DNA from: Rhodothermales bacterium
GTDB lineage: Bacteria > Bacteroidota > Rhodothermia > Rhodothermales > BA12
Direction of reading: 5' to 3'
DNA length: 49,580 nucleotides
NCBI GenBank assembly: GCA_014879465.1
Contig: JACSSA010000095.1
Span: forward strand, 1-49,580
Shown here: piece after piece, positions 39,361 to 46,595 of the stretch
Position numbering within the stretch: the stretch's first letter is position 1
How the letters are laid out: each line of letters begins with the position of its first letter
Translations under genes and position numbers: made by a program
Notes under the pieces: generated by a model
The model's database searches: none
What the model saw: the letters and a program-made list of their open reading frames with translations, nothing else
What the model was told of the DNA's origin: nothing

Positions 39361-40488
39361 ATGGAAACCACCGCCCTTGCCTCGCCGACGGAAACGGAAG
39401 ACTTTCTGCCCATCAACGGTACGGATTACGTCGAGTTTTACGTTGGCAACGCCAAACAAGCGGCGCTCTACTACGCCCACTGCTTCGGCTTTGCCATCAC
39501 CGGCTACCGCGGCCCCGAAACAGGCGTCCGCGACCGGGCCAGTTACCTCCTTCAGCAAGGGAAGATTCGTTTCGTCCTCACCGCGCCCCTTCAGCCCGAA
39601 GGCGAGATCGCCGAGCACGTGCTGCTCCACGGCGACGGCGTGAAAGACCTCGCGCTTTGGGTGGACGATGCCCGCGCCGCGTTTGAGGCCACCACCAGCC
39701 GCGGCGGCGTGGTCGTCCGCAAGCCCGAGGTGCTGGAAGACGAGCACGGACAGGTTGTCGTGGCGGCCATCGGCACCTACGGCGACACCGTCCACACCTT
39801 CGTCGAGCGGAAGAACTACACCGGCCTCTTCTTGCCCGGCTTCCGCGCCTACGACAACCCGTACTTCACCGCCGAACCCATCGGCCTCAAGTACGTCGAC
39901 CACGTCGTCGGCAACGTCGGGTGGGGCGAGATGAACCGCTACGTCCAGTACTACGCCGACGTGATGGGCTTCAAAAACCTGATCTCGTTCGACGACGAGG
40001 ACATCTCGACCGAATACTCGGCGCTGATGTCCAAGGTGATGTCCAACGGCAACGAGCGCATCAAATTCCCCATCAACGAGCCTGCCGAGGGCAAGAAGAA
40101 GAGCCAGATCGAGGAGTACCTCGACTACTACCGGGGCGCGGGCGCGCAGCACATCGCCGTCGCCACCGACGACATTCTCGCCACCGTGACGGCCCTCCGC
40201 AGCCGGGGCGTCGAGTTCCTCACCGTCCCGACGACCTACTACGACGACCTCGAAGAGCGCGTCGGTAAGATCGACGAAGACCTTGCGCCGCTGGCCGAAC
40301 TGGGCATTCTGGTGGACCGCGACCCCGACGGCTACCTGCTCCAGATCTTTACCAAGCCCGTCGAAGACCGCCCGACGGTGTTCTACGAGATCATCCAGCG
40401 CAAGGGCGCGCGTTCGTTCGGCAAGGGCAACTTCAAGGCCCTCTTCGAAGCCATCGAGCGCGAGCAAGACCTGCGCGGAAACCTGTAA
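39361..40488 (+). CDS. hppD: 4-hydroxyphenylpyruvate dioxygenase
   Basis: 375 residues, typical length. Converts 4-hydroxyphenylpyruvate to homogentisate with O2 (EC 1.13.11.27) in tyrosine breakdown. Two vicinal-oxygen-chelate domains; iron ligands are visible as His181 in KYVDHVVGNV, His264 in GAQHIAVATDD and Glu343 in FYEIIQRKG. The C-terminal gate GARSFGKGNFKALFEAIERE is complete. It is followed by homogentisate dioxygenase after a structured 98-base spacer; together they form the core of the homogentisate pathway. Confidence 0.96.
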   Translation: METTALASPTETEDFLPINGTDYVEFYVGNAKQAALYYAHCFGFAITGYRGPETGVRDRASYLLQQGKIRFVLTAPLQPEGEIAEHVLLHGDGVKDLALWVDDARAAFEATTSRGGVVVRKPEVLEDEHGQVVVAAIGTYGDTVHTFVERKNYTGLFLPGFRAYDNPYFTAEPIGLKYVDHVVGNVGWGEMNRYVQYYADVMGFKNLISFDDEDISTEYSALMSKVMSNGNERIKFPINEPAEGKKKSQIEEYLDYYRGAGAQHIAVATDDILATVTALRSRGVEFLTVPTTYYDDLEERVGKIDEDLAPLAELGILVDRDPDGYLLQIFTKPVEDRPTVFYEIIQRKGARSFGKGNFKALFEAIEREQDLRGNL

Positions 40489-40581
40489 AAGGAGAGTTGA
40501 GGGTTGGGAGTAGTCAGAAGACGCCTCCCGCACGCTCTGACGACTCCCCGCAGTGCCCGCAGGGCACGTCCAACTCCCCTT
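40489..40581 (+). repeat. Nested hairpins between hppD and hmgA
   Basis: Outer arms AAGGAGAGTT (40489-40498) and AACTCCCCTT (40572-40581) pair at 9 of 10 positions. Inside, GGGAGTAGTCAGA (40506-40518) pairs with TCTGACGACTCCC (40536-40548) at 12 of 13, and GTGCCC-GCA-GGGCAC (40553-40567) forms a third hairpin. The structure fills the whole spacer right up to the hmgA start at 40587. Confidence 0.6.
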
Positions 40582-40586
40582 CGACT

Positions 40587-41852
40587 ATGCCGCACTATGT
40601 ACGGATGGGGCGCGTGCCCCACAAACGCCACACGCAATTTCCCCGCGAGGATGGCGCGCTCCACACCGAAGAGGTGATCGGAGCCGAGGGGTTTTCCGGC
40701 CTCCAAAGCCTCGCCTACCACCTGCACCCGCCCACGCTGGTGGACGACATCGGCGCGCCGGTGGATGTGCGCGTCGAGTATGTGGACGAGCCGTTCCTCC
40801 GCCACCGCCACTTCAAAGGCCTCGACGTGGCCCCGCACGGCGACTTCCTCTCGGGCCGCGTGGCGATGCTCGGCAACGACGACGTGGTGCTGTCGGTCGT
40901 CGCCCCCACCGAGGCGATGCCCGAGGACACGTTCTACCGCAACGCCTCGTGCGACGAGCTCGTGTACGTCCACGACGGCGAGGGGCGCGTCGAGACGCCG
41001 CTGGGCACGGTGCCGTTCGTGAAGGGCGACTACGTCCACATTCCCCGCACGCTCACCCAGCGTTGGGTGTTCGACGAGGGCGGCGTGCAGCCGCGGCTGT
41101 TGGTGATCGAAGCGCCGAGCGAGTTCCACCCGCCCAAGCGCTACCGCAACGGCTTCGGGCAGCTCTTGGAAAACTCGCCGTACTGCGAGCGCGACTTCCG
41201 CCCGCCCACCGAGCTTGTGACGAAGGACGAGGCCGGGCGCTTCACCGTGCTCATCAAAAAGCACGGACGGCTGTATCCGTACGTCTACCGCTATCACCCG
41301 TTCGATGTGGTCGGGTGGGACGGGCAGATGTACCCGTACGCCATCTCGATCCACGACTTCGAGCCGATCACCGGGCGCGTCCACCAGCCGCCGCCGGTGC
41401 ACCAGATGTTCGACGCGCACAACTTCGTGGTGTGCTCGTTCGTGCCGCGGCTGTTCGACTACCATCCGCAGGCCATCCCCGCGCCGTACAACCACTCGAA
41501 CATCGACTCCGACGAGGTGCTGTACTACGCCGAGGGCGATTTTATGTCGAGAAAGGGCATCCTGCGCGGGTCGTTCACGCTCCACCCCGGCGGCATCGCC
41601 CATGGCCCGCACCCCGGCACCACCGAGGCGAGCATCGGCAAGACGGAGACGCACGAGCTGGCCGTGATGGTGGACACGTTCCGCCCGCTCAAGCCGACCA
41701 AGGCCGCGCTGGGCGTGGAGGACGACACGTACGCGTTCTCGTGGCAGCCGGAGAAGCACGGCCACCCGCTCCCCGACGCCGCCCCCGTGCCGCCGGGCGC
41801 GTCCGGCGACGGCGCGATGACCAACGCCAGCCCCGCCGACGCCGCGCGGTGA
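40587..41852 (+). CDS. hmgA: Homogentisate 1,2-dioxygenase
   Basis: 421 residues from ATG 40587; in-frame sequence before it is the hairpin spacer. Cupin-type ring-cleaving enzyme (EC 1.13.11.5) converting homogentisate to maleylacetoacetate. Visible: PHYVRMGRVPHKRHTQFP start typical of bacterial HGO, the cupin block CDELVYVHDGEGRVETPLG, the active-site region NHSNIDSDEVLYYAEGDF and PGGIAHGPHPGTTE with the iron-binding His/Glu set, and a final FRPLKPTKAALGVED. The C-terminus carries an extra Pro/Ala tail of about 25 residues. No maleylacetoacetate isomerase or fumarylacetoacetase lies in the window. Confidence 0.95.
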   Translation: MPHYVRMGRVPHKRHTQFPREDGALHTEEVIGAEGFSGLQSLAYHLHPPTLVDDIGAPVDVRVEYVDEPFLRHRHFKGLDVAPHGDFLSGRVAMLGNDDVVLSVVAPTEAMPEDTFYRNASCDELVYVHDGEGRVETPLGTVPFVKGDYVHIPRTLTQRWVFDEGGVQPRLLVIEAPSEFHPPKRYRNGFGQLLENSPYCERDFRPPTELVTKDEAGRFTVLIKKHGRLYPYVYRYHPFDVVGWDGQMYPYAISIHDFEPITGRVHQPPPVHQMFDAHNFVVCSFVPRLFDYHPQAIPAPYNHSNIDSDEVLYYAEGDFMSRKGILRGSFTLHPGGIAHGPHPGTTEASIGKTETHELAVMVDTFRPLKPTKAALGVEDDTYAFSWQPEKHGHPLPDAAPVPPGASGDGAMTNASPADAAR

Positions 41853-41864
41853 ACGCCTCGGCAC

Positions 41865-41879
41865 CACCCTGACAGGGTG
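41865..41879. terminator. CACCCTG-A-CAGGGTG hairpin between convergent genes
   Basis: Perfect 7-bp arms around a single base, between the hmgA stop and the M15 gene stop. No T run. A related hairpin lies at 43490-43509, on the other side of the AT-rich gene. Confidence 0.55.
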
Positions 41880-41881
41880 CC

Positions 41882-42437
41882 TCACAGCTTGACGTAGTGC
41901 CGCAACTGGTAATGCGGCGTGTCCTTGAAGGTCTTCCACGATCCTCCCCACTCGGTCGTCTCCGGGTCGTGGTACTTGGCTACCGCCACGTACGGAGCCT
42001 GCGCCGTCTGGTACTGGCCGTTCTTGAACACGCCCACGTCCCACGCCACGCCGTGGTTGTGCAAGCTCTGGCCCGGACGCGCATTAGTGACGCGGGGGCC
42101 GGGGTTTCCCCAGCGCCCCTTGCGGAAGAGGGCGGCCTGTTCGGCGTAGGAGCGAGTGCCCGAGAGGATGCGCACGTCGTGCCCGGCGGCGATGGCTTTC
42201 GTGAGGAAGCGACGGGCGGCCTTCTGAGCCTCTGGCAGAAGCGTGGCAAGGTTGCGCTCCGACCGCGCGTCGAAGGCCGAGTTCGGCGGCGATGCGCTGG
42301 GATTCGTGGACGAAGGCGTTGTAGGCTTTGTCGGTCTTCGGCCCCCAATCGCCGTCGATAGCGGCACGGTAGAAGCCTGCGCGGGCGAGGAAGCGCTGCG
42401 CGAAGGACACATCGTCAGGGAAGAAGGGACGGCTCAT
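41882..42437 (-). pseudogene. M15 (VanY/CwlK-like) peptidoglycan endopeptidase with frameshift
   Basis: Two frames are needed. From ATG 42437 the first frame gives MSRPFFPDDVSFAQRFLARA and YRAAIDGDWGPKTDKAYNAF (a peptidoglycan-binding-like domain) to about RIAAEL. At about 42273-42282 the homology continues one frame over as FDARSERNLATLLPEAQKAA to the stop at 41882, with the M15 zinc motifs SGTRSYAEQAALFRKGRWGN, SLHNHGVAWDVGVF and PHYQLRHY. Removing one G from GAACTCGGCCTTC would join them. The enzyme family cleaves L-Ala-D-Glu or D-Ala links, as in phage endolysins. Either an inactive gene or a one-base assembly error. Confidence 0.75.
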
Positions 42438-42504: not shown

Positions 42505-43263
42505 TCAGCTACAATTATGAACCAACATTGAATCTAGATCTGAATTCAGGTCGTTTGTTATGCATATCGGTGAATCACTATAAGGGAAAAGTGATATTAT
42601 CATTATAGAATAAGATGAATCTGTTATGGTAGGTCCGCACGAGGTGCTGTAAGCGAATGTCCTGTCTATTCTGGTCTGTGAGCACGACTCGACAGATTTA
42701 TCGCATTCGATCCTGTTAAACGACATGCACCCTTGAATATCTATAACATGACTTGACAACATGCGTTTAGTTTTGGAATCAAATACAAATCTACCTAGAA
42801 CAAATTCGTTATTTTCTCGGCTGCAGATGCCAGAAACCCCGCCTATTTCATATGAAGGGAAATCTATCTCTGCATTTACATAAATTCTCCCTGACCTTTC
42901 TTTGGCTATAATCTTGCCTATGTGAAAAGGGCCTGGATTGTTGTATTTATAATTATCCAGATTAAAAATCTCCTTTTTAAGATTTATTCTCAAATTTTTA
43001 TTGTTGATCGTGAATACAAAAACACTATCTATTTTGTACAAATCAATACCTTTACTTGCTAGGCTATCTGAGTATGATTTATATTTACTAATCATTATGG
43101 AATCCTCGCTACTGCAAAAAATTTTTTCTATATAAGTATATGTTTCATTATTTGCGATCGGTATTTGATCGTCTGCGGATCTTGTCTTTCTGTTTGTGCA
43201 TGAAAAAAGAAACATAAGCATGAAAATGATACATATCTTCATCTTGAATATGTGATGCATCAA
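42505..43263 (-). CDS. AT-rich lipoprotein gene, recently acquired
   Basis: 252 residues from 43263, or more naturally from the ATG at 43242 (MKICIIFMLMFLFSC, lipobox with Cys). Base composition is visibly AT-rich, in sharp contrast to the GC-rich DNA on both sides, and codons such as ATA, AAA, AAT and TTA dominate. The mature protein has several cysteines (FCSSEDS, GICSRENN, GCMSFNRIECDKSVESCSQT) and repeated D-S-Y-S motifs; no family recognised. The AT-rich zone runs from about 42430 to 43400. This points to recent transfer from a low-GC Bacteroidota donor. Function unknown. Confidence 0.8.
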   Translation of the reverse strand: MMHHIFKMKICIIFMLMFLFSCTNRKTRSADDQIPIANNETYTYIEKIFCSSEDSIMISKYKSYSDSLASKGIDLYKIDSVFVFTINNKNLRINLKKEIFNLDNYKYNNPGPFHIGKIIAKERSGRIYVNAEIDFPSYEIGGVSGICSRENNEFVLGRFVFDSKTKRMLSSHVIDIQGCMSFNRIECDKSVESCSQTRIDRTFAYSTSCGPTITDSSYSIMIISLFPYSDSPICITNDLNSDLDSMLVHNCS

Positions 43264-44025: not shown

Positions 44026-45414
44026 TCACCACGTGCGCCGGAGCGGGTGGGCCTCGGTGTTGAACACGACGGCGTCGAGGTCGAGCGTCTGGGGCGGTGC
44101 GAAGAGCAGGTAGAAGTACTTGAACGTCTCGGCGAAAAGAAAACTCTGCTGCTCGTCAGCCTGCGCCTTCGTCACCACGCTCGCCAGCGTCGCGTAGCCC
44201 GCGTCGGTGCGGCAGTGGCGGACGAAGTCCTCGAACATCGCCGCGCCCATCTCGACGTAGCGCGGGTCGCCGGTGGCGCGGTAGAGGTAGTAGGCCGACT
44301 CCACGATTTCGGGCCGCAGCGGGTAGCCGGGGCTGGTGACGGCGTTGCTCACGTAGTCGAACCGTTCGGGTTCGATGCCGTGCAGCCGCCACATCCGGTA
44401 GGCCGAGGCTTGGAGCCGCCGCGCCCGGCCCACGTCGCCGTCGAGCACGAACACGCCGGGCAAGAAGGCGTCGAGCGCGCCGAAGGTCGTGGACGTGCGC
44501 TCGCCCGTGTCCATATCCACGACCGCGTACCAGAGCTCGCCGGGCACGCTCGTCGTGTCGGCCACGTAGCGGTGCAGCGGCCCCCGACTCGCCTCCCACA
44601 TCCGGCGGCAGTCGGGGTCGCCGAAGAGTCGGTCGCACTTCAGCAGGTACTCGTAGTACGAGTCGATGCCGCCGGAGACGTGCGAGCGCCGCCCGACGTA
44701 CTGCCCGGTGCGCACGTCGATGCGGTTGCCGACGAGCCCAAGGGCGGAGCGGGCGTCGAAGGTGGCCACGAGCGCGCGTTTGGCCGTGTCGTAAAACACC
44801 GGGTCGCCGGTGATCCGCGAGAGGGTGCCGAACTCCAGCAGCAGCGTGCCCGTCTCGGCGGGGTTGGAGGCGGAGTCGCGGACGGCTCCGGTGCGGAGGT
44901 TGACGTAGCGGTACGGGAGGCCGGTGGGCGTTTGGAAGGCCGGAAGGAGCCGTCGCCCGAGGTCGTGGGCGAGGTCGAGCATCCGCCGGTCGCCGGTGAG
45001 TTGGTAGGCCGAGAGCAGCCCGCCGAGGTGGCGGATGGTGATCTCGAAGACCTGCACGTCTTGGTCGTGGTCGAACGTCAGGTTGGCGGCAAGGAACGCC
45101 CGGACGCTGTCGGCCTCGGCATCCAGGCCCATCAGCTTCATCGTCGAGAGGGCGTCGACGGGCGTGAAGTAGATCGGCTGGGCGTACCAGTTGTGGCCGG
45201 TCTTCGAGAGCGGGCGGAGGTCGTCGTAGCCCGAGGCGTAGCGCCGGTAGCCGCGCCAGGCGTGCAGAAACTCGGCCTTCACGCGGTCGGCCAGCGCCCG
45301 CGTATCGAGGCTCGTTTGGGCCGAGGCGGCAGCGGGCGCGGTCGGACGCACCGTTTGGCAACCGGCGGTTCCAATCAGCAGGGCGAGCGCGGCAAGGCGG
45401 AGGACGGCGGACAT
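44026..45414 (-). CDS. GH47 (class I alpha-mannosidase-like) lipoprotein
   Basis: 462 residues from ATG 45414. Lipobox (IGTAGC, Cys19). The rest is the (alpha/alpha)7 barrel of glycoside hydrolase family 47: GHNWYAQPIYFTPVDALSTM, FEITIRHLGGLLSAYQLTGD (Glu124), LPYRYVNLRTG, GTLLLEFGTLSRITGD, GGIDSYYEYLLK, LRPEIVESAYYLYRATGD and SFLFAETFKYFYLLFA, closed by the calcium-binding VFNTEAHPL. GH47 enzymes are mostly eukaryotic ER/Golgi 1,2-alpha-mannosidases; bacterial members are few. It is probably anchored in a membrane facing the periplasm or outside and trims mannose-containing glycans. Confidence 0.88.
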   Translation of the reverse strand: MSAVLRLAALALLIGTAGCQTVRPTAPAAASAQTSLDTRALADRVKAEFLHAWRGYRRYASGYDDLRPLSKTGHNWYAQPIYFTPVDALSTMKLMGLDAEADSVRAFLAANLTFDHDQDVQVFEITIRHLGGLLSAYQLTGDRRMLDLAHDLGRRLLPAFQTPTGLPYRYVNLRTGAVRDSASNPAETGTLLLEFGTLSRITGDPVFYDTAKRALVATFDARSALGLVGNRIDVRTGQYVGRRSHVSGGIDSYYEYLLKCDRLFGDPDCRRMWEASRGPLHRYVADTTSVPGELWYAVVDMDTGERTSTTFGALDAFLPGVFVLDGDVGRARRLQASAYRMWRLHGIEPERFDYVSNAVTSPGYPLRPEIVESAYYLYRATGDPRYVEMGAAMFEDFVRHCRTDAGYATLASVVTKAQADEQQSFLFAETFKYFYLLFAPPQTLDLDAVVFNTEAHPLRRTW

Positions 45415-45449
45415 CGGCGCGGAGAAGGAACGCCGCACGATACGAAAAA

Positions 45450-45478
45450 CCCTGCCCGCACCGAGGATGCAGGCAGGG
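45450..45478 (-). terminator. Terminator of the FKBP gene
   Basis: CCCTGCC (45450-45456) and GGCAGGG (45472-45478) form the stem base with extra inner pairs; on the minus strand GGGTTTTTCG follows. Confidence 0.75.
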
Positions 45479-45503
45479 CAACCGACCAAACGTACGGTGG
45501 CGG

Positions 45504-46595
45504 TTACGGCAGGATCAGGCCGCCCGGAGACGTCCGTTCGCCCGGCTTCGCACCGCCACCGATCGGTTTGCCGTCGGGGCCGAGCAGCCCGGAGCCTTGC
45601 GGCGGCTGCGGCGGAAGCTGGCTCGGATCGACCGGCACGAGCAGGATGTCCATCACCACGCCGTCGGGCGTGACCTCCACGACCTGCGCCGGGAAGGTTT
45701 GGCCGTCCGGGCCGTTCATCATCAGCTGTTCGCCGACCTGCGGGTTCAGCTCCGGCGGAAGCTGCTCCTTCGGCACGGTGATGCGCTGCACCGGCGGCGG
45801 GGCCATCAGCATATCGACCACATACACGTCGTCGCGGATTTCGACCACCGTCGCCGGGAACTGGCCTTCCGGCGTGTTGAGCGTGAGGTTCTGGCCGACC
45901 TGCGGCGGCGGGCCGCCGGTAAGCTGGTCTTTGGGGATTTCGACGCGGCGCACGGGCGGCGGCGCGGCCAGCACGTCGAGCACGACCACGTCGTCGCGGA
46001 TTTCCACGACGATGGCCGGGAACGAGCCGTCGGGGGTGTTGAGCGTGATCTGCTCGCCGACCGCCGGAAGCTGAGCGCCTTCAAACTGGTCTTTCGGCAC
46101 CTCGATGCGCTGCACCTGCGGCGCTTGCGCGGCCACCTGCTGCTGGAACGCGGCGGCGTCTTCGTCGGAGAGAATCTCGACGAGCGCGATGTCGAACGTG
46201 AGGTCTTCGCCTGCGAGCGGGTGGTTGCTGTCGAGCACCGCCGAGTCGTCGGAGAGGGCGTAGATGGTGACGGGGAAGGGCTGGCCGTCGGGCGTGCCGA
46301 TCATCAGCTGGTCGCCCACCTGCGGCTCCCGGTCGGCAGGAAGATCGGCGCGCGGAACTTCCATCAGCAGGCTGTCTTGGTGCTCGCCGTAGGCGCGTTC
46401 GGCAGGAATGGTGACGGTCTTTTCGTCGCCAACGTTCATGCCGAGGACGGCGTCGTCGAAGCCGGGGATGACTTGGCCTGCGCCGACGGTAAACGTGAGC
46501 GGTTCGCGGCCTTCCGAGGAGTCGAAGACTTCGCCGCCGTCGAGCGTGCCGGTGTAGTGAATGCGGACGGTGTCGCCCGCCTTGACCTGTGCCAT
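45504..46595 (-). CDS. FKBP/SlyD-type peptidyl-prolyl isomerase with extra tandem IF-like modules
   Basis: 363 residues, about twice the usual SlyD length. Residues 1-78 and 120-145 form an FKBP domain (VRIHYTGTLDGGEVFDSS, GQVIPGFDDAVLGMNVGDEK); an insert-in-flap domain lies at about 78-128 (MEVPRADLPADREPQVGDQL, then TPDGQPFPVTIYALSDDSAV). After the FKBP fold closes near 145, three further copies of this insert follow at about 161-212, 216-266 and 269-320, each with (I/V)P-K-D/E-Q, PQVG-Q/E-x-L, (T/G)P-D/E-G-x-F-P-A and V-V-E-I/V. A Pro/Gly tail ends the protein. The isomerase part catalyses prolyl cis-trans isomerisation, and the IF domain is the chaperone part that binds unfolded protein. 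No signal peptide, so cytoplasmic. The usual His-rich metal tail of SlyD is absent. Confidence 0.9.
   Translation of the reverse strand: MAQVKAGDTVRIHYTGTLDGGEVFDSSEGREPLTFTVGAGQVIPGFDDAVLGMNVGDEKTVTIPAERAYGEHQDSLLMEVPRADLPADREPQVGDQLMIGTPDGQPFPVTIYALSDDSAVLDSNHPLAGEDLTFDIALVEILSDEDAAAFQQQVAAQAPQVQRIEVPKDQFEGAQLPAVGEQITLNTPDGSFPAIVVEIRDDVVVLDVLAAPPPVRRVEIPKDQLTGGPPPQVGQNLTLNTPEGQFPATVVEIRDDVYVVDMLMAPPPVQRITVPKEQLPPELNPQVGEQLMMNGPDGQTFPAQVVEVTPDGVVMDILLVPVDPSQLPPQPPQGSGLLGPDGKPIGGGAKPGERTSPGGLILP

Follow-up and report, generated by a model that had tools for sequence, protein, structure and literature searches.

A SlyD-like FKBP with three additional tandem IF domains encoded in a Rhodothermales genome

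In SlyD, the IF domain, an insert in the flap of the FKBP fold, captures unfolded chains and passes them to the FKBP site. It is a model chaperone module that, among the proteins considered here, was known only as a flap insert, and the IF of E. coli SlyD cannot fold without its host domain. Can such a domain leave the flap, and what would it do in several free-standing copies? This question is raised by a gene in the window, the whole 49,580-nucleotide stretch of contig JACSSA010000095.1 (assembly GCA_014879465.1) from a Rhodothermales bacterium. The initial annotation placed at 45636-46364 a SlyD-type IF followed by three more copies of it, and this interval corresponds exactly to residues 78-320 of the ORF that heads Table 1.

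Both halves of the gene carry a coding signal (GC3 0.84 and 0.90). The order of AYG (residues 68-70), IF (74-124), NHPLAG (124-129) and LTF (132-134) identifies the canonical IF as the flap insert. The units of the tail, R1 to R3, are about 49 residues long each and recur with a period of 54 residues, joined by APPPV(R/Q)R linkers; the motif of the R1-R2 linker, L-A-A-P-P-P-V-R-R, extends over the edges of both adjoining units.

Table 1. Coordinates of the features of the SlyD-like gene in the window.
Feature	Coordinates	Strand	Basis
Whole gene: 363-aa SlyD-like FKBP with four IF domains, cytoplasmic-looking, no apparent signal peptide	45504..46595	-	ORF and profile
FKBP domain, N-terminal part, residues 1-73, with Y14, F24, D25, F35, V42, I43, Y69	46377..46595	-	Pfam FKBP_C 3.7e-24; PDB 1ix5 1e-27
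Canonical IF chaperone domain, flap insert, residues 74-124	46224..46376	-	IF profile 57.4 bits; alignable with Thermus SlyD IF
FKBP domain, C-terminal part, residues 125-143, NHPLAG motif (H125) and F134	46167..46223	-	Invariant alignment columns
Helical FKBP-tail linker, residues 144-160	46116..46166	-	Helix 144-157 in model
Extra IF unit R1, residues 161-209	45969..46115	-	33.4 bits; strands E160-167, turn, E182-187, E190-199, E203-210 (model)
R1-R2 proline-rich linker, residues 210-214	45954..45968	-	Sequence; pLDDT <50 at 211-213
Extra IF unit R2, residues 215-263	45807..45953	-	34.2 bits; predicted models
R2-R3 proline-rich linker, residues 264-268, motif L-M-A-P-P-P-V-Q-R	45792..45806	-	Sequence
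Extra IF unit R3, residues 269-318	45642..45791	-	55.8 bits
Disordered Pro/Gly-rich C-terminus, residues 327-363, last residues GGLILP	45507..45617	-	pLDDT <50 for 327-363
Terminator-like hairpin with T-run, about 25 bases past the stop codon	45449..45479	-	Position suggestive; count alone not above chance

The first 143 residues constitute a SlyD-like FKBP (Pfam FKBP_C 3.7e-24; Foldseek match to SlyD 9e-14). Their nearest PDB sequences are 1ix5 (the best), FKBP12-IF chimeras and SlyD, and the best structural matches are Thermus SlyD. All residues of the classical FKBP site (Table 1) are present; we take their roles from general FKBP knowledge, and the isomerase site is predicted to be intact. 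Neither of the corresponding NCBIfam models claims the protein, which scores 80.1 bits with PRK10737 (SlyD proper) against an equivalog cut-off of 174, and 87.8 bits with PRK15095 (the SlpA model) against 125. It also does not display the His/Cys-rich metal-binding C-terminus that serves as a criterion for SlyD proper: residues 146-363 contain no His and no Cys, which sets this tail apart from the metal-binding one of E. coli SlyD. A single IF is the usual, not a definitional, feature of SlyD-like FKBPs, and the window protein breaks this one-IF pattern.

To what family do the tail units belong? For an IF profile we used 64 distinct SlyD relatives, all from other genomes and excluding the window protein. 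It matched the latter at four places, residues 76-122 (57.4 bits), 164-207 (33.4), 218-261 (34.2) and 272-316 (55.8), and at nothing else of note; R1, R2 and R3 each cover profile positions 4-48 of 48. As the tail itself had served as bait for some of these relatives, the search was repeated with a profile of the 23 rows fetched without it, and the four units again scored 52.1, 28.4, 29.2 and 49.5 bits. Among 2,000 shuffled tails no score exceeded 9.9 bits, and among 432 other ORFs in the window none exceeded 3.6 bits. Profile-profile comparison of R1-R3 with the IFs of other genomes (hhalign) gave a probability of 99.2%, compared with at most 6.3% for 20 column-shuffled IF profiles and 0.5% for the FKBP part. 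In the reverse direction, the tail used alone as a query brought up hardly anything but the IF portion of SlyD orthologues, which it matched in 29 of 114 genomes from the order and in about 105 of 395 sampled from the phylum (best E-value 8.7e-10). Two odd matches in frames longer than 500 aa we take as chance: the G277 frame is an unrelated 545-aa ORF, and the second match in G493 is only 29 residues long. In its closeness to the IF family, R3 falls only slightly behind the canonical insert, and it shares up to 57% identity with single-IF SlyDs of other phyla.

Predicted structures lead to the same assignment. In a full-length AlphaFold2 model, for which the alignment covered the FKBP-IF part only, every tail unit adopts the strand-turn-strand-strand-strand order of the canonical IF; the strands of R1 (Table 1) may be compared with those of the true insert (E77-81, turn, E96-100, E106-114, E118-122). 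The tail has pLDDT of about 60-84 in this model, and a mean pLDDT of 83 when modeled alone. In the tail-only run, the alignment supplied IF relatives for R3 alone, which means that R1 and R2 reached the same fold without them. Foldseek superposed one copy from the tail model on the IF of E. coli SlyD with an rmsd of 1.5 Å over 45 columns, and aligned the model with SlpA at 1.6 Å and with FKBP12-IF(SlyD) at 2.0 Å, all with probability 1.00. Overall, the matches to SlyD and SlpA IFs had probabilities up to 1.00 and rmsd values of 1.5-2.2 Å over 45-47 columns, their E-values being just 0.03-0.16 because the domain is small. The nominal top match of the tail is a fibronectin model with an rmsd of 19.9 Å. 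Thus, the claim that three extra, free-standing SlyD IF domains follow the isomerase is backed by sequence profiles, profile-profile comparison and the predicted fold alike, and we regard the domain architecture as well supported.

Peptides bound to Thermus SlyD lie in a hydrophobic groove formed by V74, F79, F91, L103, V115 and F117, adding a strand to the β8-β9 hairpin (PMC5034536). The equivalent positions in R1/R2/R3 are V/I/V (V74), F/L/L (F79), I/L/L (F91), A/A/A (L103), L/V/M (V115) and V/M/I (F117), so that the groove positions are hydrophobic in every IF copy. Because R1-R3 have Ala at the L103 position and a differing β8-β9 hairpin, their affinity for clients may differ.

The similarity between the DNA of the first copies had been read in the initial annotation as a sign of recent expansion, with a repeat number that might vary. 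Neither expectation is supported. R1 and R2 share 63% identity at the protein level and 74% at the DNA level. Where they have the same residue, 23 of 31 codons are identical, little above the 19.3 that the codon usage of the gene would predict, and their dS of about 0.48 is the same as that between the IF and R1. These values place the synonymous sites near their floor, and the expansion looks not recent, with the caveat that such short units make a weak clock. R3 is up to 51% identical to the IFs of other genera and 41% identical to the IF of its own protein; being as near to the former as to the latter, it likewise suggests that the duplication is old or diverged fast. In a tree of 48 columns, in which 30 of 61 branches are open, R1-R3 group together (97/84). 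The group lies near IFs from another single family within the phylum and not clearly with its own IF. Duplication of the protein's own IF and fusion with another slyD would both be compatible with this tree, which does not distinguish between them.

As for the repeat number, 79 of the 80 IF-bearing ORFs in the fetched loci have one unit, and the window protein alone has four. Our survey of the spread took in about 1,600 distinct genomes from outside the protein's own family and outside Pseudomonadota, and is less sensitive to strongly diverged tails; within it, the tail was found in no other genome. Only single-unit matches were seen in the order (114 genomes), the class (245) and the phylum (395 sampled), and no tandem IF tail was present in samples of three other phyla (284, 301 and 250 genomes), in the family with the IF closest to R3 (279), or in plasmids, phages and viral contigs. 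A seemingly multi-unit match at 2-237 in G031 runs through a stop codon, and other matches that seemed to have more units or lie in long frames are chance or single-IF proteins. In the literature as represented by titles, abstracts and term counts, with subscription papers mostly outside this scope, we came across no description of a SlyD or FKBP with tandem or multivalent IFs. The protein gives a known family a new domain architecture, seen in a single genome to date, and selection on the tail is consequently not shown by cross-species conservation.

What might four IFs do for one isomerase? We consider it probable that the gene encodes a cytoplasmic SlyD-type prolyl isomerase-chaperone in which a duplicate of the IF arose outside the flap and later multiplied in tandem, hence its one flap IF and three free-standing IFs on flexible proline-rich linkers, and that the product works as a multivalent holdase-isomerase. 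As in Thermus SlyD, each extra IF would use strand augmentation to bind unfolded chains at extended hydrophobic stretches. Its four sites would jointly grip long or aggregation-prone clients with high avidity, through several grips on a long chain or several chains per isomerase, and prolyl bonds of the client would be fed to the single FKBP active site. The IF of E. coli SlyD alone is unfolded and those of SlpA and FKBP18 are stable in isolation (PMC11013033); given the E. coli case, stability of the free copies is plausible, not assured. A broader proposition, on which we are evenly divided, is that four IFs per isomerase make up a natural, high-avidity multivalent SlyD, and that an IF can leave the flap, fold alone and multiply as a beads-on-a-string array.

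Four other explanations were considered. That the tail consists of another small barrel (SH3, KOW, Tudor or ProQ-C type), or is an assembly artefact, is barely credible and already contradicted. The hints of a different barrel come from Pfam, where ProQ_C scores 21.0 of the required 23.3 bits and GreA_GreB, PilZ and TOBE score lower, and from low-probability Foldseek matches to Tudor (spindlin) and eIF2-gamma structures; library scans give only such sub-threshold small-barrel matches because Pfam has no IF model. KOW or SH3 repeats, the families that the initial annotation had named as the competing assignment, fit no better than IF, with SH3-like Pfam scores of at most 21 bits, below cut-off, and Tudor/SH3-like structures superposing at about 17-20 Å, whereas the IF profiles give 28-56 bits and hhalign a near-certain match, with shuffled controls far lower. 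Collapse of reads is impossible, since the units differ at 26-37% of their DNA positions. A highly improbable reading is that the tail is tolerated baggage of one lineage, duplicated neutrally with no gain of function. Its presence in a single genome agrees with this, but all three units are still open and recognisable despite synonymous sites near saturation, dN/dS among the units is about 0.56-0.65, and the hydrophobic groove has been retained in all three.

The same groove bears on whether the copies form an IF-fold scaffold for specific partner binding or self-association instead of general client grips. We think this rather unlikely: R1 and R2 have indeed drifted from the IF family (33-34 versus 57 bits), carry Ala in one of the groove positions, differ in the hairpin, and are spaced regularly by proline-rich linkers, yet hydrophobic groove positions are kept in all copies, and R3 matches the family as closely as the functional insert does (55.8 versus 57.4 bits). 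The proline-rich linkers also lie close to an isomerase, and a purification-tag linker sits inside the IF groove in a crystal of SlpA (PMC5034536). Both facts would suit autoregulation, in which the enzyme would be tuned by the tail IFs, or by the proline-rich linkers and C-terminus (APPPV, PPQPPQ), filling an FKBP or IF site in their own molecule or in an adjacent one. We find this quite improbable, as no packing of the tail on the FKBP is predicted with confidence (pTM 0.39). The multivalent holdase-isomerase is the reading that we favour.

The position of the hairpin past the stop codon suggests that the slyD-like gene may be transcribed on its own. It is flanked by a divergent OsmC-like gene and an MsrB (SelR) gene, and a GH47-family lipoprotein-like gene lies downstream. 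No conserved gene neighbourhood was found in the loci of relatives, so the context gives no pointer to a dedicated client. The GH47 gene (class I alpha-mannosidase family), of bacterial lipoprotein-like type, lies directly downstream at 44029-45489 (-), with an E-value of 7.7e-122; its listed TTG start lies close to the terminator-like hairpin, which makes the ATG near 45414 the probable true start. Farther along, adjoining genes for 4-hydroxyphenylpyruvate dioxygenase and homogentisate 1,2-dioxygenase (39361-41872, +) form a tyrosine-degradation pair. At 41882-42437 (-), PG_binding_1 and VanY/M15 peptidase domains occupy two overlapping frames of an apparently single endolysin-like gene, which hence appears frameshifted near 42270-42290, as a pseudogene, through a sequence error or by a programmed shift. 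A 252-aa lipoprotein-like ORF at 42505-43263 (-) has no Pfam match; being rich in Ser, Ile, Asn and Lys, it is probably AT-richer than the window (GC 67.5%) and perhaps foreign. At the protein level, SlyD relatives from several families of the same phylum (L017, L066, L092, L117) have short hydrophobic-proline ends, GGNIVTP (in many relatives), GSNIITP, SRIIMP and SMIIMP, and the window protein ends in GGLILP at 45504-45521 (-). Genome-wide, the pattern G-x-I-z-x-P-stop, one residue longer than the window protein's own end, showed no clear excess.

A protein with three natural free-standing copies would make it possible to test whether avidity for clients scales with copy number, whether an IF functions at a distance from the active site, and by what route domains escape their insertion sites in evolution. 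Among known systems, SlyD itself (E. coli; Thermus thermophilus 3cgm and 4odm; 2k8i) shares with the window protein the FKBP with a flap IF and the residues of the active site and NHPLAG connector, and residues 1-143 superpose and align with it; the window protein differs in adding three IF units after the FKBP and, compared with E. coli SlyD, in a tail devoid of the His/Cys metal-binding C-terminus. To our knowledge, the C-terminal extension of Methanocaldococcus jannaschii FKBP26 does not consist of IF repeats. That protein (3prb) has a SlyD-like FKBP-IF core and a C-terminal extension in common with ours, but the core alone is matched, over about residues 31-165 by sequence. SlpA, FKBP18 and MtFKBP17 (1ix5) are likewise SlyD-like and lack a metal-binding tail, but have one IF only. 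In the FKBP12-IF chimeras (5i7p, 5i7q), engineered transfer established the IF as a movable chaperone module; these are man-made and have a single IF in the flap, whereas the window protein has natural extra copies. With its four IFs, it offers a ready-made scaffold for folding catalysts, which so far have been obtained by grafting of a single IF.
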